40,358 nt of DNA from a virus. The position numbers were made by a program, and so were the translations under genes. Location: IMG/VR virus record IMGVR_UViG_3300045970_000684, positions 1 through 40,358 of that record; one strand, given 5' to 3'. The notes beneath the pieces were generated by a model. That model was not told the origin of the DNA. It saw only the letters and a program-made list of their open reading frames with translations, and did no database searches. Below are positions 5,978 to 36,664 of the stretch, in pieces (position 1 is the stretch's first letter; each line of letters begins with the position of its first letter).

Positions 5978-6732
5978 TCGCTCCGGCCGTCCTCCTGCCG
6001 GTTGTTGACGAGATGCTCCGCTTCGCGCGCGGCCGCCTGGCCAAGGCCGCGCTGCCGGCGGCGATCGCCGCGAGGGACGCGCTCGTGGAGCCGTTCGCCG
6101 CAGACATCGCCGCCTACTTCGAGGCCATGGGCAAGCGCGTGCTGGGCACCGTGCACAAGGCGCTCGAGATCGGCTGGGATCCGGCGGACGACGTCGACTG
6201 GACGATCGAGGACGCGGAGCTCACGACGGTGCTCGCCCGCTGGTACACGACCTTGGGCGAGACCGCGTTCGCCGCCGTCGCAGACCAGCTGGCGGTCGAG
6301 CTGCGCTGGGACCTCAGCGCCCGCCCGGTCGCCGCGATCCTCGACCGCGTCGGCGCGCAGGTCGTCGGCATCAGCGAGACCAGCCGCCAGCTGCTCGCCG
6401 GCATCGTGCAGCGCGCGACCGAGCAGGGCCTCTCGATCGAGCAGCTCATCCCGCTGCTCGAGGAGGCATTCACGTCGTGGTCGACGGGCCGCGCCGCGAC
6501 GGTGGCCCTGACCGAGACGGCGAACGCCTACAACCTCGCCTCCGCGGCCGGCTACGCGGCGTCGGGCCTGGTCGACGAGGTCGAGATCTTCGACGGTGCC
6601 GAGTGCGGCTGGGACGGCCACGACGACCCGGACCTCGCGGACGGCTCAATCCGGACGCTCGAGGAGTTCACCGACATGCCGACCAGCCATCCCAACTGCC
6701 AGCGGGCCGCCGGCCCCGTGGTCGTCCGATGA
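5974..6732 (+). CDS. Mu F / SPP1 gp7-like minor head (head morphogenesis) protein
   Basis: 252 residues from a GTG overlapping the portal stop. The N-terminal part is helical. The C-terminal domain has the typical order of this family: a TETANAYN segment, then DGAECGW, a DGS turn and a final SHPNCQR. Proteins of this family bind the portal and take part in capsid assembly or DNA ejection. Position directly after the portal agrees. In some relatives this domain is fused to other enzymes; here it stands alone. Confidence 0.88.
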   Translation: MIAPAVLLPVVDEMLRFARGRLAKAALPAAIAARDALVEPFAADIAAYFEAMGKRVLGTVHKALEIGWDPADDVDWTIEDAELTTVLARWYTTLGETAFAAVADQLAVELRWDLSARPVAAILDRVGAQVVGISETSRQLLAGIVQRATEQGLSIEQLIPLLEEAFTSWSTGRAATVALTETANAYNLASAAGYAASGLVDEVEIFDGAECGWDGHDDPDLADGSIRTLEEFTDMPTSHPNCQRAAGPVVVR

Positions 6733-6866
6733 CATCGCACATGAGGCGGGCCAGCGGTGACCGTACTCGCGAACCCCGCCGAGCCGCACGTCGCGAAGAC
6801 GCCGCCCACGGACCGGCATCGGATCCCACTGGCCCGGCCACGATGGTAGTCGAGGTCGTCCGATGA
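6729..6866 (+). CDS. Short basic ORF between head genes
   Basis: 45 residues, ATG overlapping the previous stop and TGA overlapping the next ATG, so the gene chain is unbroken only if this frame is used. It is Arg-rich and has no motif I know. An alternative frame from GTG 6757 gives a 30-residue peptide ending at 6849. Which, if either, is made cannot be decided from sequence. Confidence 0.4.
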   Translation: MTSHMRRASGDRTREPRRAARREDAAHGPASDPTGPATMVVEVVR

Positions 6867-7294
6867 CCGCCACCCCGGCCACCTTCGCCATGCCCGCCCG
6901 GATCGTCAAGAGCGACGGCGCCCGGCAGATCGCCTATGGCGTCGTCCTCGAGCCGTGCACGGCGGAGACGACCCGTGACAGCCAGGGCGACTGGTACACG
7001 GCCGAGGACATCGAGAAGGCGGCCCACGGCTTCCTCGTGGGCGTGGCGAAGGGCAACGGCGGCGCCGACCTCATGCACGCCGACGACGGCGAGGGGCCTC
7101 TGGTGGGCTACCCCGTCGAGAGCTTCATTGCCCCCGTCGACTTCGTGTGGGGCGAGGGCGATCGCACCGAGATCGTCAAGGCAGGCTCGTGGGTCATGGG
7201 CGTGCACTACCCGGACCCGGAGATCTGGGCGGGCGTGGTCAAGGGCGAGCTCGGCGCGTTCAGCGTCTGGGGCAAGGGCATGAGGGTCTTCTGA
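6863..7294 (+). CDS. XkdF-like phage serine protease domain (prohead protease candidate)
   Basis: 143 residues. The order of motifs matches the N-terminal part of XkdF-type proteins of PBSX-like phages: IAYGVVLEPCTAETTRDSQG, then EDIEKAAHGFL, a central His-containing LMHADDGEG, ESFIAPVDF, KAGSWVMGV and GELGAFSVWGKGM. XkdF is thought to be the maturation protease of such phages. The protein ends just after the GAFSVWGKG segment, where longer relatives continue into a VSLVDKGAN segment that here begins the next gene. One base separates this stop from the next ATG. Confidence 0.8.
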   Translation: MTATPATFAMPARIVKSDGARQIAYGVVLEPCTAETTRDSQGDWYTAEDIEKAAHGFLVGVAKGNGGADLMHADDGEGPLVGYPVESFIAPVDFVWGEGDRTEIVKAGSWVMGVHYPDPEIWAGVVKGELGAFSVWGKGMRVF

Positions 7295-26650: not shown

Positions 26651-26979
26651 TGGCGGGCCTCGTCTACATCGGGATCACGTCCGCCGGCGACGAGCTCGTG
26701 GTCCTCGACGCCGCCCGTCGCCTCTACGCCGGGCTGTCGCGGGACGGCGCCTACTGGCACGTCGTGGCGCCGGCGGTCGAGGACATGGTCAACGCCGAGA
26801 ACGCGGTCATCCGCTCGGCCGGCCAGCTGACCTGCCGCTGCCGCGGCGGCCTCTACCGCGGCACCTGCTATCGCGTCGTCGAGGCTGAGGCCTTCGAGGC
26901 CGGGCAGCTGGCACCGATCCACGGCCCGCACTGCGACGCGGACCTCCGCCGCAGCGGCTGCGCCTGCGTGCCGGCATGA
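26650..26979 (+). CDS. Cysteine-rich small protein, unknown
   Basis: 109 residues. Cys residues lie in LTCRCRGGLYRGTCYRV and near the C-terminal HCDADLRRSGCACVPA, enough for one or two zinc sites. The first 60 residues suggest a small alpha/beta fold. The gene is coupled to the SbcD-like gene (ATGA), so it may act with the nuclease. Function unknown. Confidence 0.6.
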   Translation: MAGLVYIGITSAGDELVVLDAARRLYAGLSRDGAYWHVVAPAVEDMVNAENAVIRSAGQLTCRCRGGLYRGTCYRVVEAEAFEAGQLAPIHGPHCDADLRRSGCACVPA

Positions 26980-28115
26980 CGCGCCTTGCCGTCGTCGCCG
27001 ACGTCCACTGCGACGACTTCGGATCCAAGACGGACCCGGCCACGGGCCTCAACGCCCGATGGGCGGACACCGTCGGCATGCTGCGCTGGGTGGCGCTCGA
27101 CGCCCGGGCGCGCGGCTGCGACGCCCTGGTGGTCGCGGGCGACCTCTCCGAGGCCCGGCACCCGGCCCCTTGGCGCGTCGCCCAGATCGGCGAGGCGCTG
27201 GACGCCTTCGACGGGCCCGTGGTCCTCGTGCGCGGCAACCACGACGGGCTCCGGGCGGGACGCTCGATCGCCGACGTCCTCGCCGCGGGCCGCCCCGGCT
27301 GGTCGGGGTTCTCGAGCCCCGGGATCGCGGTCGTGGGCGACACCGCCGTGGCGTGCCTGCCGTACCTCGACAAGCACCACATGCGGGCGCTGCCCGGCTA
27401 CGAGTCGGTCCCGGAGGCCGAGGTCTTCGCGGTCCTCGCCGACGCCTACATCACGATCGCCCGCGGGCTGTACGCGGAGGCCCGCGCCACGAGCGCCCGG
27501 TCGGCCGTGCTGGTGGTCCACCAGGCGCTCGCCGGCGGGTCCATGAGCGAGGCGCAGCAGGTGTTCCTGGGCGACCACGCCCTCGTCGCCGACACCCGGG
27601 CGCTGGCGGCCATCGGGTTCGAGGCGGTCCTCGCCGGGCACTTCCACAAGCACCAGGTGCTGTCGGAGTCGCCGCTGGTCGCCTACGCGGGGTCGCCCTA
27701 CCGGACCGACTTCGGCGAGGAGCACCAGGCCAAGGGGTACATGGTCGTGGACGTCGCCCCGGGTTCCGCCGCGATGGAGTTCGTGGAGTCGCCGGCGCGC
27801 CGGTTCTACACCATCGACCTCGCCAAGGTCTTCGCAGACCACGCGGTAGGCGCGGCGGAGGGAGCCGTCGTGCGCGTCGTCAACGCGCCGGCCGACATGG
27901 ACGCGGCGGCGCTGCGGAGGCGGCTCGAGGACGCGGGCGCGTTCGACGTCGTCGAGATCCGCCGGGCGCCGGTGGCTGCAGCAGCTGCTGCCGGAAGCAT
28001 GGCCGAGGGCCTCGCCCCGGCGGCCGCCCTGGCCGAGTACTTCGCCGCGGATCCGGACGCCGCTGTTTTGGTGGAGCGCGGCCGCGAGCTGCTGGCCGAG
28101 GCGGTGGCGGCATGA
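26976..28115 (+). CDS. sbcD: SbcD/Mre11-like nuclease subunit
   Basis: 379 residues. All metallophosphoesterase motifs are present: DVH (9-11), GDLSE (55), GNHD (87-90), VVHQ with His182, and GHFHKH (221-226). The C-terminal 80 residues form a capping/partner-binding part. With the SbcC-like ATPase encoded next (ATGA overlap) it should form the SbcCD (Mre11-Rad50) complex that trims DNA ends and hairpins. In phages such pairs (T4 gp47/gp46, T5) serve recombination-dependent replication. Confidence 0.92.
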   Translation: MTRLAVVADVHCDDFGSKTDPATGLNARWADTVGMLRWVALDARARGCDALVVAGDLSEARHPAPWRVAQIGEALDAFDGPVVLVRGNHDGLRAGRSIADVLAAGRPGWSGFSSPGIAVVGDTAVACLPYLDKHHMRALPGYESVPEAEVFAVLADAYITIARGLYAEARATSARSAVLVVHQALAGGSMSEAQQVFLGDHALVADTRALAAIGFEAVLAGHFHKHQVLSESPLVAYAGSPYRTDFGEEHQAKGYMVVDVAPGSAAMEFVESPARRFYTIDLAKVFADHAVGAAEGAVVRVVNAPADMDAAALRRRLEDAGAFDVVEIRRAPVAAAAAAGSMAEGLAPAAALAEYFAADPDAAVLVERGRELLAEAVAA

Positions 28116-30340
28116 GGCTCGACCGGATCGTCCTGAAGAACTTCCTTTCGCACGCCGACACGACGTGGGAGCCGGAGGGCGCCCGGCTGGTCTCCCTGGT
28201 CGGGGCCAACGGCGCCGGCAAGTCCTCGCTGCTGGATGCCGTGGCGTTCTGCCTCTACGACAGCGCCCGCGGGCGCACCGACGACCTCGTGCGGCTCGGC
28301 GCCGACGACATGAGCGCACGGGTCGAGTTCGCGTTCGCCGGGTCCCGCTACGCCGTCGAGCGCGGCCGCACCCGGCGCGCCGGCGGCAAGTCCTACCTGG
28401 AGCTCCAGATCGCCGACGGCGACGGCTGGCGGCCCCTCACGGGCGACAGCATCCGCGAGACGCAGGACGCCGTCGCGGCCCTGCTCCGGATGGACGCCTC
28501 GACGTTCTCCCAGGCGGCCCTGCTGATGCAGGGGCGGCTCAACGCCTTCGCCGACGCGACGCCGGGCGACCGCAAGCGCGTCCTCGGGCAGGTGCTCGGG
28601 CTCGACGTCTGGGCGCGCGCCGAGCAGTCCGCCCGCGTCCGCGCCCGCGACCTTGACGCCCGCCTCGCCGCAGAGCGCGGGCAGGTCGAGCGGATGGACG
28701 CCAGGCTGGCCGACCGGCCCCGCCTCGAGGACCTCTCGGCCATCGCGGCCCGGGACGTCGCCGAGCTCGACGCCGGCACGGCCGCCCAGACATCCGCGCG
28801 GGATGCCGCGTCGGCCGCGGTCGCCGCGCTGGACGCCAGGCTCGCCGCCGCGGACGCGCAGCGGGCACTCGCGGACCAGCTGGACGCCCGCGTGGCCGAG
28901 CTCGCGGGACGGTACAGGGACGCGCAGGCGCGGCGGGGATTCGCGGCCGCGGCGGCCGACCGGGCCGCACTGGCGATCGGCGCCGGCGCCGGCGCCGCTG
29001 AGGCGCTCGAGGGCCTCCCCGCCGCCAGGGCCCGGCTGGAGTCGCTCGAGGCGCTGCGCGAGCGCGACGCCGAGATGCGCGAGCAGGTCCGGGCCCGGCG
29101 CGAGGTCCACGCGGCGGCATCGGCCGAGGGCCGCCAGGCGGCCGCCGAGTGGACGGCCCGGCACACCTCGGCGCAGGCCCGGGTGGACGACCTCGCGCAG
29201 GCCGCGCAGGCGCTCAAGCCCGTCCCCTGCCCCAAGTGCGGGACGCCCGTGACGGCCGACGGGGGCGACCTGTACCGGCGCCTGGACGCCGCCCGCGCGG
29301 AGCTCCGCGCCATGGGCGACCAGCCTCCCAACACCACGGGGTGGACGCAGCTCGAGATCGAGGCGAACAAGGTCCGCGCGCTCGAGGCGCAGCGGGTGGC
29401 GCTCGGCTTCGACCCGGCCGCCGTGGCCGCGGCGTCGTCAGGGCTCCGCTCGCTGGAAGCGCTGGCCGCCCGGGCCGGCGGGGTCGCAGACGCGGAGGCG
29501 TCGCTGGCCGAGGCGCAGGGCGCGATCGCGGACGCCGAGGCCGAGATGGCCCGGGTCACCCGCGACGGGGCGGCCGCGCGCGAGGCGTCAGACGCCGCCC
29601 GCCGCGAGCTCGCGGCCCTGGACCCCGTCCGCGCGGAGCGGCTGGAGCGCTCCCTCGAGGCCGCCGCGGCCTCCCAGGCGCTCCGGGTGCTCGCCCTGCA
29701 GCTGCGCCAGGCGCAGGAGGCCGCCGCCCACGCCGCCGCCGGGCTCGCCGAGCTGGACCGGGTCCGGGACGAGCGCGACGCCGCGGTATCCGCGATCGCC
29801 GGCCTCGAGCGCGAGGGGTCTGTCCTGCGCCGGCTCGTGTCGGCGTTCGGGGTCGCGGGCATCCCCGCGCGGATCATCGAGGGGACGATCCCGGAGCTCG
29901 AGCAATACGCCAACGAGCTCCTGTCCCAGCTCCGCCCCGGGATGGCGCTGTCGATCCGCTCGCAGCGGGCCAAGAAGTCGGGCGACGGGATGATCGAGGC
30001 GCTCGACCTGGTCGTCCAGGACGACGCCGGGGAGCGGCCGCTGGCGATGTTCTCGGGCGGCGAGCGGATGAGCGCCTCGCTCGCCCTCGCGGTCGGCCTC
30101 TCGCGCCTCGTGGCGCGCCGGGCCGGCACCGCCGTTCGCACGCTGGTTGTGGATGAGCCGGACGGGCTGGACTCGGATGCCAGGCGCTCCTTCGGCCAGG
30201 CCCTCCGGGTGCTCGCCCATCTCGGCGAGCTGGAGCGGGTCGTCCTGGTCAGCCACCACGAGGACCTCGCGGAGATGGCCGACGCGGTCTACAGGGTCGA
30301 GAAGAGCGCCGGCGGGTCGTCCGTCGGGCTCGCGGCATAG
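28112..30340 (+). CDS. sbcC: SbcC/Rad50-like SMC-type ATPase
   Basis: 742 residues. Walker A GANGAGKSS is at 31-39; a long Ala/Arg/Glu coiled coil follows; a zinc hook CPKC is at Cys373-Cys376; the second coil runs to about 590; the ABC signature FSGGER and Walker B VVDEPDGLDSD (Asp681-Glu682) close the head. It is shorter than the bacterial 1000-residue SbcC, as in phage forms, and the hook lies exactly mid-chain. It works with the SbcD-like subunit. Confidence 0.93.
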   Translation: MRLDRIVLKNFLSHADTTWEPEGARLVSLVGANGAGKSSLLDAVAFCLYDSARGRTDDLVRLGADDMSARVEFAFAGSRYAVERGRTRRAGGKSYLELQIADGDGWRPLTGDSIRETQDAVAALLRMDASTFSQAALLMQGRLNAFADATPGDRKRVLGQVLGLDVWARAEQSARVRARDLDARLAAERGQVERMDARLADRPRLEDLSAIAARDVAELDAGTAAQTSARDAASAAVAALDARLAAADAQRALADQLDARVAELAGRYRDAQARRGFAAAAADRAALAIGAGAGAAEALEGLPAARARLESLEALRERDAEMREQVRARREVHAAASAEGRQAAAEWTARHTSAQARVDDLAQAAQALKPVPCPKCGTPVTADGGDLYRRLDAARAELRAMGDQPPNTTGWTQLEIEANKVRALEAQRVALGFDPAAVAAASSGLRSLEALAARAGGVADAEASLAEAQGAIADAEAEMARVTRDGAAAREASDAARRELAALDPVRAERLERSLEAAAASQALRVLALQLRQAQEAAAHAAAGLAELDRVRDERDAAVSAIAGLEREGSVLRRLVSAFGVAGIPARIIEGTIPELEQYANELLSQLRPGMALSIRSQRAKKSGDGMIEALDLVVQDDAGERPLAMFSGGERMSASLALAVGLSRLVARRAGTAVRTLVVDEPDGLDSDARRSFGQALRVLAHLGELERVVLVSHHEDLAEMADAVYRVEKSAGGSSVGLAA

Positions 30341-31820: not shown

Positions 31821-32269
31821 GCCCCGACACCGCAGCCCTCCGCGCCCTGCTCGACTCGGCCACGCCCGGGCCGTGGGAGGTCTACCACGGGTACAGCGGG
31901 GCGCAGAACATCGCCCAGATGCGGAGCACTGACCGCACGGTCAGCGTGGCCGCCGAGAAGGTCATATCAACCAAGCGGGGCGACGTGCCGCCGTGGGAGC
32001 GGACGATGCCGAACGCCCAGCTGATCGTCGCGGCCGTCAACGCCCTGCCGGAGCTGCTCGACGAGATCGACCGGCTGCGGGACTCGCACAAGATGACCGC
32101 CGCCCTGCTCGAGGACGCCCTGGCGCGGAGCGGCGACCACCACGTCATCGGCAACGGCTACTGCCTCGACTGTCAGGGCGGCTGCATGCGCGGCTTCGGC
32201 AATCCGGATCCCGATGTGGCGCTGGTCGAGCCGAGCCCGTTCAGCGTCAGGGAGGCTCGCCGTGGGTGA
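31817..32269 (+). CDS. Ead/Ea22-like early protein
   Basis: 150 residues from GTG. It has both marks of the Ead/Ea22 group: the start ALLDSATPGPWEV and the later NAQLIVAAVNALPELLDEID plus RL. The C-terminus holds HHVIGNGYCLDCQGGC, an added Cys cluster. Members are common in phage early regions and have no agreed function. Confidence 0.75.
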   Translation: MSPDTAALRALLDSATPGPWEVYHGYSGAQNIAQMRSTDRTVSVAAEKVISTKRGDVPPWERTMPNAQLIVAAVNALPELLDEIDRLRDSHKMTAALLEDALARSGDHHVIGNGYCLDCQGGCMRGFGNPDPDVALVEPSPFSVREARRG

Positions 32270-33116
32270 CAAGTCCGCGATCGAGTGGACCGACGCGACG
32301 TGGAACCCCGTCACGGGCTGCTCCAAGGTGTCGCCCGGCTGCGCCCACTGCTACGCCGAGACGCTGGCCCTGACCCGGCTCCGCGGCCGAGAGGGCTACC
32401 CGGGACTGCCGTGGACGCCGGCGAACGCGGCCGAGAACGTGGTGCTGCGCCCGGCGCGCCTGGACCAGCCCCTCCGGTGGAAGCGGCCGCGCCGCATCTT
32501 CGTCAACAGCCTGTCCGACCTGTTCCACGACCAGGTGCCCAACGGGTTCATCGACGACGTCTTCGGCGTCATGGCGGCCTGCCGCTACCGGGCCGTCGGT
32601 GATGACGCGTTCGCCTGGCACACCTTCCAGATCCTCACGAAGCGGCCCGATCGGATGCGCGACTACCTGTCGACCGACCGCCGCCTCGCGTGGGCGGCCG
32701 CGGCCGTGCACTACGGCGGCGGCAAGGACCCGGACGGGATCAGCGACCAGACGGCCTTCGGCCCGGTCGCGCTTCCCAACGTCTGGCTCGGGACGTCGAT
32801 CGAGAACGACCGGTTCACGGGCCGCGCGGACGCTCTGCGCGAGACGCCCGCCGCCGTCCGGTTCCTGTCCCTCGAGCCGCTGCTCGGCCCGCTGCCGTCG
32901 CTAGACCTCGCGGGCATCGGCTGGGTCATCGCCGGGGGCGAGTCCGGACCCGGCTTCCGTGCGCCGGCAGCCGCGTGGGTGCGCGACATCCGCGACCGCT
33001 GCGTCGAGGCGGGCGTCCCGTTCCTCTTCAAGCAGTGGGGCGGGCGGACGTCCAAGGCCGGGGGGCGCGAGCTCGACGGGCGCGAGTGGCTCCAGTACCC
33101 GGAGGCGGCGTCGTGA
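32262..33116 (+). CDS. Phage Gp37/Gp68 family (DUF5131) protein
   Basis: 284 residues from GTG with GGGAGG upstream. Clear signatures: KSAIEWTDATWNPVTGCSKV, then SPGCAHCYAE, IFVNSLSDLFH, LTKRPDRM, LPNVWLGTSIEN, and the ending IAGGESGPGFRA plus FKQWGG. The C-x6-C-x2-C cluster (CSKVSPGCAHC) recalls a radical-SAM or other metal-binding site in a TIM-barrel-like protein. The family is frequent in phages of high-GC hosts; its reaction is not established. Confidence 0.88.
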   Translation: MGDKSAIEWTDATWNPVTGCSKVSPGCAHCYAETLALTRLRGREGYPGLPWTPANAAENVVLRPARLDQPLRWKRPRRIFVNSLSDLFHDQVPNGFIDDVFGVMAACRYRAVGDDAFAWHTFQILTKRPDRMRDYLSTDRRLAWAAAAVHYGGGKDPDGISDQTAFGPVALPNVWLGTSIENDRFTGRADALRETPAAVRFLSLEPLLGPLPSLDLAGIGWVIAGGESGPGFRAPAAAWVRDIRDRCVEAGVPFLFKQWGGRTSKAGGRELDGREWLQYPEAAS

Positions 33117-34496: not shown

Positions 34497-34699
34497 TCGC
34501 CGCGGCGCCGCTGATGCCGCCCCGGGCGTCCATGTCCGAGGACGCCCTCATCCGCGCCTACGCGGGCCCCGTGGTCCGACGGGAGCCCTGCGCCTGCGGG
34601 TCCGACGTCGTGCAGCGGCTGTCCGATGACGTTCCCGAGGCCGTCCGGCGGCACCAGGACACCCGCTCTCACACGGCGTGGCGCGAGAGGAACGAGTGA
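34493..34699 (+). CDS. Small zinc-binding early protein
   Basis: 68 residues from GTG; contains EPCACGSDV followed by two His in RRHQDTRSHTAW, a probable C2H2-type site. Coupled to the replication gene (TGATG). Function unknown. Confidence 0.55.
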   Translation: MIAAAPLMPPRASMSEDALIRAYAGPVVRREPCACGSDVVQRLSDDVPEAVRRHQDTRSHTAWRERNE

Positions 34700-35775
34700 T
34701 GCCGCGCGACAACGAGCCCTGGGTCAAGGTCAAGATCGGAGCGCGCCGATCCGGGAAGATCGCCGCGCTGCCCGGCGACTCAGCCCGCCTCGGGTACTTC
34801 TACCTGCTCCTCGAGGCCAAGGTCCAGCGGCGCATGGGCGTGTTCGACGGGCGCCCGCACTTCGCCGAGGTCATGGGCCGATTCGGGCGCTTCCTGCCCG
34901 ACTACATCTGCGCCGGCCTGGTCCACGAGGCGCCGGCACTCTGCCCCGCGTGCAGCGACAGGTTCGAGGTTGCGGACGGATGCGTCGTCGTGCACGACTT
35001 CCTGCGCGAGCAGCGGTCTGGGCGATCTAGCGATCAGGACGACCTGGAGGCGGGCGCCGAGACGGTGACCGGAGCCCAGCGGACCAAGCTGTGGCGTCTC
35101 AGGAGGGCCGTGTTCGAGCGCGACAACTGGACATGCCGGTACTGCGGACGCGGCGACTACGAGCGCGACTGGCTCGTCGCCGAGCACGTCGTCCCCAGCG
35201 GCCCGACCACGCTGGACAACCTGGTGACCGCCTGCCGGGGATGCAACAAGCGGAAGGGGCCGAGGACCCCCGCTGACGCCGGGATGGTCCTCCTGCCGCT
35301 GGGTGGTGACGGACCTGTGACCGGTCACCGTGACGCGTCACAGGTACCGGGTGACGAGTCACAAGCGGACGTCACGAGACGCGTCACCTCACGCGCGCCC
35401 GAATCGACGGGGACGGTGACAGTGACAGAGAGAATCCCTAAGCCGTCTAGCAGGAGGGGCGCGCGCCCGGTTGAGGACGAGGGACCTCTTCTCACCAAGC
35501 CCCAGCTCGACGCCTGGGCGTCCTTCGGGCCGGAGTGGGACGCGTTCAAGGCGGCGTGGCTCGACCGAGGCCTGCGCCTCCCGCCCTCCGGGGATCCGGA
35601 CGAGGACGGAAGCCAGCGCTCCGTCCTGCACCCGATCGTTGCCGACTGGCCCGGCGAGGTCGCCTCCTGGACCGCTTCGGCCCCCAGGGGCGCCAGCGGC
35701 CGCGACGTCGTCGGGCACGTGATCCGCTGCTACCGGGACGCGACGGGCGGCGCCCTCGACGAGGTGCCCGACTGA
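34699..35775 (+). CDS. Replication initiator-like protein with inserted HNH nuclease domain
   Basis: 358 residues. Residues 1-110 look like the winged-helix N-domain of phage replisome organisers (WVKVKIGARRSGKIAALPGD, then SARLGYFYLLLEAKVQRRMG). Residues about 118-190 are a full HNH module: WTCRYCG, AEHVVPSGPTTLDNLVTACR and GCNKRKGPRTP. A Thr/Val-rich linker (200-250) is encoded by the GTGAC/GTCAC array. The C-terminal 100 residues are DnaD-like in look (FGPEWDAFKAAWLDRGLRLP). The HNH part may be an inserted homing-type domain or part of the initiator's job. Confidence 0.7.
   Translation: MPRDNEPWVKVKIGARRSGKIAALPGDSARLGYFYLLLEAKVQRRMGVFDGRPHFAEVMGRFGRFLPDYICAGLVHEAPALCPACSDRFEVADGCVVVHDFLREQRSGRSSDQDDLEAGAETVTGAQRTKLWRLRRAVFERDNWTCRYCGRGDYERDWLVAEHVVPSGPTTLDNLVTACRGCNKRKGPRTPADAGMVLLPLGGDGPVTGHRDASQVPGDESQADVTRRVTSRAPESTGTVTVTERIPKPSSRRGARPVEDEGPLLTKPQLDAWASFGPEWDAFKAAWLDRGLRLPPSGDPDEDGSQRSVLHPIVADWPGEVASWTASAPRGASGRDVVGHVIRCYRDATGGALDEVPD
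35306..35426. other. Candidate replication origin: 11 GTGAC/GTCAC iteron half-sites
   Basis: GTGAC or GTCAC occurs 11 times in 121 bases: GTGAC at 35306, 35317, 35330, 35351, 35416 and 35422; GTCAC at 35324, 35337, 35358, 35371 and 35383. Three pairs form the perfect 12-bp palindrome GTGAC-N2-GTCAC (35317-35328, 35330-35341, 35351-35362) and a fourth has one mismatch (35376-35387). An A/T-richer run (35427-35450) follows. In lambda the origin iterons also lie inside the initiator gene. Confidence 0.6.
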
Positions 35776-35840: not shown

Positions 35841-36188
35841 GTGACCCGCATCGACGACCCGGCCAGCGCCGTGGCAGCCGCCCTCTGCGCCTCGGCGCGC
35901 ATGCCCGGCGGCACGGGCACGACCCGCCGGCACCCCCGGCGCTGCGGCTGGTGCGACTACCCGGTCCGCGAGCTCGCCGCGATGGTCGCGGCCTTCAACC
36001 AGGTGGCCGGCCGCGACGAGCGCCGCGGCACGTGGGCCCGCCACGACGTGCGGGTCTTCACCGGCCTGCCCCATGACGCCCAGGTGGCGCAGGTGGCCGC
36101 CGCGCAGGAGATCGAGCCCATGGGGGCCGCGGCGGCCCGCCCGGCCGATGGCGGGGCGCCCGAGGAGGAGAGCGTGCCGTGGGCGTGA
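35841..36188 (+). CDS. Early protein with CxxC, unknown
   Basis: 115 residues from GTG with GGGAGG upstream. Features: RCGWCDYPV and a middle helix ELAAMVAAFNQVAGRD, then WARHDVRVFTGL. No family recognised. It ends inside the start of the resolvase gene. The 65 bases before it (35776-35840) hold no other gene. Confidence 0.55.
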   Translation: MTRIDDPASAVAAALCASARMPGGTGTTRRHPRRCGWCDYPVRELAAMVAAFNQVAGRDERRGTWARHDVRVFTGLPHDAQVAQVAAAQEIEPMGAAAARPADGGAPEEESVPWA

Positions 36189-36664
36189 AGATCCTCGCCA
36201 TCGACCCCGGCACGGCGGAGTCCGCCTGGATGGTCCTCGAGGACGGCCTGCCGGTCGGCCGCGCATTCGCCAAGACGCCCAACCAGGACGTGCGGACCCT
36301 GATCCTCCAGGCCGCCGGCGACATCGACCTGGTCGTCATCGAGGAGGTCCGGTCCTACGGCATGCCCGTGGGTATGGAGACGTTCGACACGGTCCGCTGG
36401 TGCGGCCGCTTCGAGGAGGCCGCCGCGTCCCGCGGCATCCCCGTCGCCTGGCTCGGCCGCAAGGACGTCGTCGTCAACCTCTGCGGATCCGCCAAGGCCA
36501 AGGACGCCAACGTGCACCGCGCCCTGCTCGACCGATTCGGGGGCGACGGCGCGAAGGGCGTGAAGGCCAGCCCCGGGCCGCTCTACGGGGTCAGCGGCGA
36601 CGTCTGGTCGGCCCTCGCCGTCGGCTGCACCTGGTTCGACAAGCTCACGGAGGGACAGGCATGA
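36179..36664 (+). CDS. RuvC-like Holliday junction resolvase
   Basis: 161 residues from GTG 36179 (GTG 36185 is possible). The RNase H-like fold shows KILAIDPGTAESAW with the first Asp, then VVIEEVRSYG with the second acidic pair, and a C-terminal helix with SGDVWSALAVGCTWF supplying the last Asp. This is the pattern of phage RuvC/Rap-type resolvases that cut branched DNA before packaging. It completes a recombination set with the annealing protein and SbcCD. Confidence 0.82.
   Translation: MGVKILAIDPGTAESAWMVLEDGLPVGRAFAKTPNQDVRTLILQAAGDIDLVVIEEVRSYGMPVGMETFDTVRWCGRFEEAAASRGIPVAWLGRKDVVVNLCGSAKAKDANVHRALLDRFGGDGAKGVKASPGPLYGVSGDVWSALAVGCTWFDKLTEGQA

Follow-up and report, generated by a model that had tools for sequence, protein, structure and literature searches.

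To our knowledge, experimentally mapped replication origins are few in phages, and predicting such origins is difficult. The known precedent for an origin inside a gene is provided by lambda O and ori-lambda and by the origins of Stx phages, in which repeated initiator sites lie in the middle of the initiator gene and are followed by an A/T-rich tract (PMC7466680). The Rac prophage of E. coli, which encodes the DUF1376 protein YdaU, has an active origin, oriJ, known here at the level of the prophage (PMC3945230). Basic helices that read short palindromic sites are typical of bZIP proteins and of bacterial bZIP-like regulators such as RptR and TodS, and bZIP-like DNA reading in bacteria has been discussed (PMC12255303).

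The locus described here lies in the 40,358-base virus record IMGVR_UViG_3300045970_000684, the whole of which is referred to as the window, and, judged from sequence comparison, it appears to be an embedded origin of the lambda O kind in a new form. As in lambda O, an array of sites is clustered inside the initiator gene between the N- and C-terminal parts, with a tract adjacent to it; however, the window protein has no Phage_rep_O match, its sites are 5-bp half-sites arranged as GTGAC-N2-GTCAC rather than long iterons, its proposed reader is a basic helix, an HNH domain is inserted, and the A/T-rich tract beside the array is weaker than that of lambda. The DUF1376 initiators of phi297 and Rac share with it a wing domain, a basic segment, an in-gene inverted-repeat array and a tract, and the half-site word of phi297 is GTSAC, as in the window, while that of YdaU is GTTCAAAC; they differ in that the N-terminal domain of the window protein does not match DUF1376 and that DUF1376 initiators lack the HNH domain. 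The order N-terminal domain, basic segment, HNH domain and GTGAC array is also found in the Phage_rep_org_N loci L087/L125, whose genome, in contrast to the window, is low in G+C, whose N-terminal domain is unrelated and which have only two palindromes plus single sites. The likeness to bZIP proteins is confined to the basic helix and the short palindromic sites: the segment has no sequence match to solved structures, a leucine zipper is not in evidence, and homology is not claimed. The features of the locus are as follows (window coordinates):

34699..35775, plus strand: putative replication initiator gene (358 aa) containing the array; open reading frame and translation, role from the array and homologous architecture
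34699..35016, plus strand: N-terminal domain, residues 1-106, probably winged-helix; conservation in L004 and L151, low-confidence model
35071..35112, plus strand: basic helix GAQR128TKLWR133LRRAVF, residues 125-138, proposed half-site reader; near-invariant R128 and R133, model helix, covariation
35134..35286, plus strand: HNH nuclease domain, residues 146-196; Pfam match, zinc cysteines and EH-N-N motif residues
35306..35426, no strand: array of 11 GTGAC/GTCAC half-sites; motif count and synonymous null
35317..35328, no strand: perfect palindrome GTGACCGGTCAC; GTGAC-N2-GTCAC match
35330..35341, no strand: perfect palindrome GTGACGCGTCAC; GTGAC-N2-GTCAC match
35351..35362, no strand: palindromic site GTGACGAGTCAC; GTGAC-N2-GTCAC match
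35376..35387, no strand: degenerate site GAGACGCGTCAC, seen by sequence; its counterpart in L151 is GAGACGCGTCTC
35409..35453, plus strand: purine- and A/T-richer tract, candidate unwinding region; A+T content, purine test, conservation in L151
35494..35772, plus strand: C-terminal domain, residues 266-358, candidate contact for a helicase or loader, a putative function

The original prediction, made from the window alone, had reported eleven GTGAC/GTCAC copies in 121 bases where less than one is expected, three perfect palindromes at spacings of 13 and 21 bases and an A/T-richer run behind them, and all three statements held. The half-sites start at 35306, 35317, 35324, 35330, 35337, 35351, 35358, 35371, 35383, 35416 and 35422, against a genome-wide rate of 0.22 per 121 bp and a best cluster of three away from the initiator gene. 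GTGAC-N2-GTCAC occurs three times in the window, each time in the array (at 35317, 35330 and 35351), compared with a mean of 0.06 in shuffled sequence. The bases 35423-35453 are 48% A+T (28% in the window), and their best 30 bp belong to the top 0.5% of the window's 30-bp windows by A+T. The half-sites encode residues 203-243 of the protein. As the VT and RD residues encoded there favour GTSAC by themselves, a stricter synonymous null was used. In 20,000 synonymous-codon redraws, the mean number of half-sites was 4.8 and the maximum 9, compared with the 11 observed, and 0.03 palindromes were expected where three are found. The half-sites are spread over the three codon positions (5/4/2), which, together with the excess over the synonymous null, shows selection on the DNA. 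The purine test on the tract 35409-35453 was borderline (p=0.05), and AGAGAGAATCC within it is kept in L151. The GC skew of the window has its minimum near 36.8 kb (p=0.39) and lends no support to an origin.

The window protein consists of the N-terminal domain, the basic segment, the HNH domain, the array-encoded linker and the C-terminal domain, in this order. The HNH domain is matched at residues 146-188 by PF01844 (E=6e-8, 33.1 bits with a cut-off of 21.4) and HNH_5 (6.5e-7), and its motif residues are intact (EHVVP, N174, CNK and four cysteines). The only matches of Pfam profiles up to E=0.1 were to HNH families and, below threshold, to DUF3072; the N-terminal domain did not match the Pfam profiles Phage_rep_O, Phage_rep_org_N or DUF1376, no rolling-circle Rep nickase family of Pfam matched the protein, and profile searches gave no direct match to initiator families. 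A search of bacterial genomes for homologs of the window protein found none, and no helicase or loader was matched among those neighbours of the gene that were searched. Genes for an integrase and for SbcD-like, RuvC-like and DUF5131 proteins were matched in the window, and the virus is therefore probably a temperate phage. The SbcD-like gene (phrog_100, 1.9e-24) lies in the stretch 26976-30340 and is overlapped by an open reading frame of 1093 aa (27059-30340), which may encode the SbcC partner; the DUF5131 gene (32214-33116, E=8.5e-87) lies upstream of the replication region, and the RuvC-like Holliday junction resolvase gene (phrog_1770, 36179-36664) shortly downstream of the initiator gene.

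Close relatives of the window protein are few in the collections searched. At 54% identity, the homolog in L151 (L151 and L159 being one contig) possesses the N-terminal domain and the HNH domain as well as an array with the same spacings of 13 and 21; 46 of 50 aligned half-site bases are identical to those of the window, compared with 83 of 107 elsewhere, and the C-terminal domain has diverged. In L004, the N-terminal domain is 75-77% identical to that of the window protein, and both the HNH domain and the GTGAC array are absent. The absence of the array from a close relative had been named beforehand as a result that would speak against an origin, and L004 does lack GTGAC sites; yet its linker carries three GTAGAC/GTCTAC and three GTAAC sites at that position, and its basic segment is changed as well, so that this objection stands for the word and fails for the array. 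The two relatives thus indicate that the position of the array is conserved, that its word is changeable and that the HNH domain is optional. By inspection, the L004 initiator (6001-7037) appears to be split, with one open reading frame for the N-terminal domain, the segment and the array and probably an overlapping second one for the C-terminal domain.

Viral contigs were scanned blind for the occurrence of two GTGAC-N2-GTCAC within 30 bases, which yielded at least 119 palindrome-pair loci, compared with two for a reversed control motif. Among the loci listed, 64 pairs lie inside open reading frames of at least 190 aa, which form 24 clusters unjoined by blastp; a few of these frames are likely artefacts of the wrong strand, and the family scan covered 50. 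Their PHROG matches are mostly to replication functions (primosomal 29, replication protein 27, replication initiation 13, others), and their Pfam matches are to DUF1376 (25), DnaT (5), HNH (3), T5orf172 (2), Phage_rep_org_N (1) and Phage_rep_O (1). The G+C content of the array-bearing loci spans 36% to 75%. GTGAC arrays inside initiator genes are thus a recurrent design across unrelated initiators. The Phage_rep_O locus, L097, has a GTGAC array and no obvious basic segment. A GIY-YIG/T5orf172 domain lies between the basic segment and the GTGAC array in L078 (9945-11198) and L085 (10636-12159), in the slot that holds the HNH domain in the window. About half of the listed pairs fall outside long open reading frames and are mostly operator-like intergenic sites; in L042, L047, L052, L058, L089, L150 and L155, such pairs have an A/T-rich spacer and form an operator-like second class. 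A purine tract after the array reached significance in no more than 16 of 45 loci, and no single tract rule is claimed since many other loci have pyrimidine or C-rich tracts. Downstream of the arrays, for example those of L160, L171, L210, L203 and L454, are strand-asymmetric repeats (AGAGAAGAGAAG, CAGATACAGATA, GGGACAGGGACA) followed by paired C-runs, for instance CCCCCCTTAACCCCCC or C7-TAAAT-C7, which are possibly unwinding or primer elements.

The alignment of the 50 array-bearing frames has three nearly invariant columns, among them R128 and R133 (window numbering) of the basic segment. The window fits the pattern R-x3-[YWH]-R upstream of an in-gene inverted-repeat array (R128TKLWR133, array of 11). 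The reverse approach, in which viral contigs encoding RQRRYRER were taken without reference to arrays, led to the same association: GTAAC, CGTTA, CGTAA and GTCAC were the top-ranked 5-mers over the 330 bases that follow the motif, and GTNAC occurred 221 times, with 33 expected, downstream of the motif in frames with at least 90 residues after it; short frames had little excess. The density of GTNAC climbs immediately downstream of the motif and returns to background within about 240 bases, and the outcome was the same in two further motif scans. The segment NAERQRRYRER presumably resembles the basic regions of Pap1 and Yap1, which we take as a lead only. Small Cys-rich proteins of about 75-90 aa in L162, L165, L175, L189 and L195 carry RQRRYRER at their start and have no adjacent array.

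The word of the array varies with the basic segment. In the motif-selected set, the ratio of GTSAC to GTWAC is 45:1 when the residue after the first arginine is Thr, 1:14 for Val and 130:110 for Gln, and the difference between Thr and Gln at matched background is significant (p=9e-4 by sites, 0.006 by loci). The N-terminal domains of L240 and L263 are 57% identical, yet L240 combines T with GTSAC (5/5) and L263 V with GTWAC (11/11). Eighty DUF1376 loci were then taken from bacterial genomes by their wing domain only, and in this family GTNAC arrays were predicted neither by a simple basic-motif rule nor by a profile trained on other phages; where motifs are good, the loci often bear other words, namely GTAGAC alongside RQ(K/A)RWR and, alongside RLxx(W/H)R, GTTTC/GAAAC. 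The word-by-segment test followed from inspection of these failed predictions, and that part is therefore post hoc. Array similarity in the DUF1376 set tracks the segment (partial r 0.27, p=0.002; 0.11 for the wing), with an array sharing of 0.027 for similar wings with different segments (n=667 pairs) and 0.486 for less similar wings with similar segments (n=71 pairs). In a dereplicated table of the loci that passed the array threshold, T goes with GTSAC (7/7, including the window and L151), L with GTTTC (4/4), Q(A/K/Q)RW, or QxRW, with GTAGAC (4/4, including L004) and V with GTWAC (2/2), the GTTTC and GTAGAC classes being partly post hoc as they were defined on part of the same data. The mutual information between segment and word is 0.94 bits (shuffled maximum 0.70, p=5e-5). 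The window itself has T129 and GTSAC in 11/11 half-sites, but its high G+C makes this agreement weak evidence when the window is taken singly. An E. coli gene in L456 (NERVTKIRELK with GTTAC/GTAAC) resembled the Val class by eye, failed the array threshold and was left uncounted. Further candidate pairings in the DUF1376 set are CARIKKHNQRH with GGGAC/GGACA (L377, L383, L400 and others), where GGGACA may partly be tract rather than array, and the segment classes DRxRKANK with the candidate word CGGAA (L386, L393, L434) and QRERAAKRWQK with the candidate word ATGCC (L414, L424, L441).

The confident AlphaFold model of a DUF1376 initiator (pLDDT 86) has the wing domain followed by a single 44-residue helix (99-142), which holds the basic segment. 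Its best Foldseek match in the PDB is 4pta, an initiator of the plasmid 'MDR initiator' type, at a non-significant E=0.12, and a peptide search of the PDB with the basic segment found no match. The model of the window protein is poor (pLDDT 51), with a helix at 125-138 and, at low confidence, the helix/strand order of the N-terminal domain. The replication protein gene of phi297 adjoins a DnaB-like helicase gene, and in one E. coli strain a replication protein P gene comes after a YdaU-type gene. The Rac ydaU gene of E. coli K-12 has the same anatomy, with an ACAGAT tract and C7-TAAAT-C7, and E. coli mosaics swap the N-terminal part together with the array while the C-terminal part is kept.

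Taken together, the array of the window is likely to be the initiator-binding part of an embedded origin, with half-sites read mainly by the basic helix and the HNH domain as an accessory. An origin inside the initiator gene as in lambda O, which the original prediction had proposed, is well supported by comparison, as mid-gene arrays recur in phage initiators and L151 keeps the spacings. This reading is favoured because of the synonymous null, the blind scan, the L151 spacings, the motif-first scans and the tracking of word by segment, and also because of the DnaB-like neighbour in phi297, the replication protein P neighbour in E. coli and the helix of the DUF1376 model; it is limited by the failed DUF1376 predictions, L097, the initiator-family searches, the poor window model and the GC skew. 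We infer binding, origin activity, the helix as reader, the residues that touch the DNA and the order of events as follows. The origin would lie inside the gene, between the DNA-binding part and the C-terminal domain, and a dimer or oligomer of the initiator would bind the GTGAC/GTCAC half-sites, which would be read mainly by the R128-T129-x-x-W132-R133-x-R135 helix after the N-terminal domain, with T129 helping to specify the half-site's G/C centre. The bound oligomer might then open the adjacent purine- and A/T-richer tract, and the C-terminal part might recruit the replicative helicase, by analogy with lambda O (PMC7466680).

Among the other explanations, a low-constraint Val/Thr/Arg/Asp linker that yields GTSAC by chance has a negligible probability: the encoded residues alone do raise the expected number of half-sites to 4.8, but the observed array exceeds every synonymous redraw, in half-sites as in palindromes, all three codon phases are in use and the spacing is kept in L151. 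A pure protein-repeat artefact was rejected, as it is contradicted by the synonymous null. The array could also be an operator through which the initiator operon is autoregulated, and the many operator-like intergenic pairs of the blind scan would fit such a role; these, however, consist of two sites with an A/T-rich spacer, whereas the in-gene class has dense mid-gene arrays far from the start codon, followed by low-complexity tracts, which makes an operator improbable. The original prediction had further considered a nicking-type origin. On such a reading, the HNH domain would start replication by cleaving the DNA within the array or close to it; alternatively, it would be a homing nuclease that targets the array. 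Its motif residues are intact, the window, L151 and L087/L125 all encode it immediately upstream of the array, and GIY-YIG/T5orf172 fills the same slot in L078/L085; but the nuclease is missing from L004 and from most array-bearing initiators, and no rolling-circle Rep family matched. Since the HNH domain is an optional insertion, a nicking origin is not supported and seems very improbable; the domain as an essential part was rejected, and it is, by sequence, best seen as an accessory inserted between helix and array.

The strongest competitor accepts the origin and assigns its reading to the winged-helix domain, as in lambda O (PMC7466680), so that the basic segment would travel with the array by adjacency. 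The lambda precedent, the weak correlation between wing and array similarity and L097, with an array and no clear basic segment, speak for it. Against it, similar wings occur with different words (L240/L263, the window and L004, the DUF1376 set), and unrelated wings with the same segment agree in their word in the cross-family table; we therefore regard it as rather unlikely. Reading mainly by the basic helix is the reading preferred here. Its generalization, that phage initiators with unrelated wings share a bZIP-like basic helix which specifies the half-site (T: GTSAC, V: GTWAC, L: GTTTC, QxRW: GTAGAC) of an array just downstream in the same gene, and that this amounts to a transferable protein-DNA code, is evenly poised between being right and being wrong, and co-inheritance of the adjacent segment and array DNA may explain part of the covariation. 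No description of the association was found in the literature searched, which is an incomplete collection.

The association between segment and word is a more interesting result than the array of the window itself. If it holds, an origin and its binding word would be readable, in many phage families, from a segment of about 12 residues and the neighbouring DNA, and changes of specificity would be testable by single substitutions. If the code is true, the origins of phages and prophages, including those of E. coli, would be predictable from sequence, phages would have a basic-helix mode of DNA reading that is coupled to its own target within one gene, and the odd Val-Thr/Arg-Asp linkers of these initiators would be explained.
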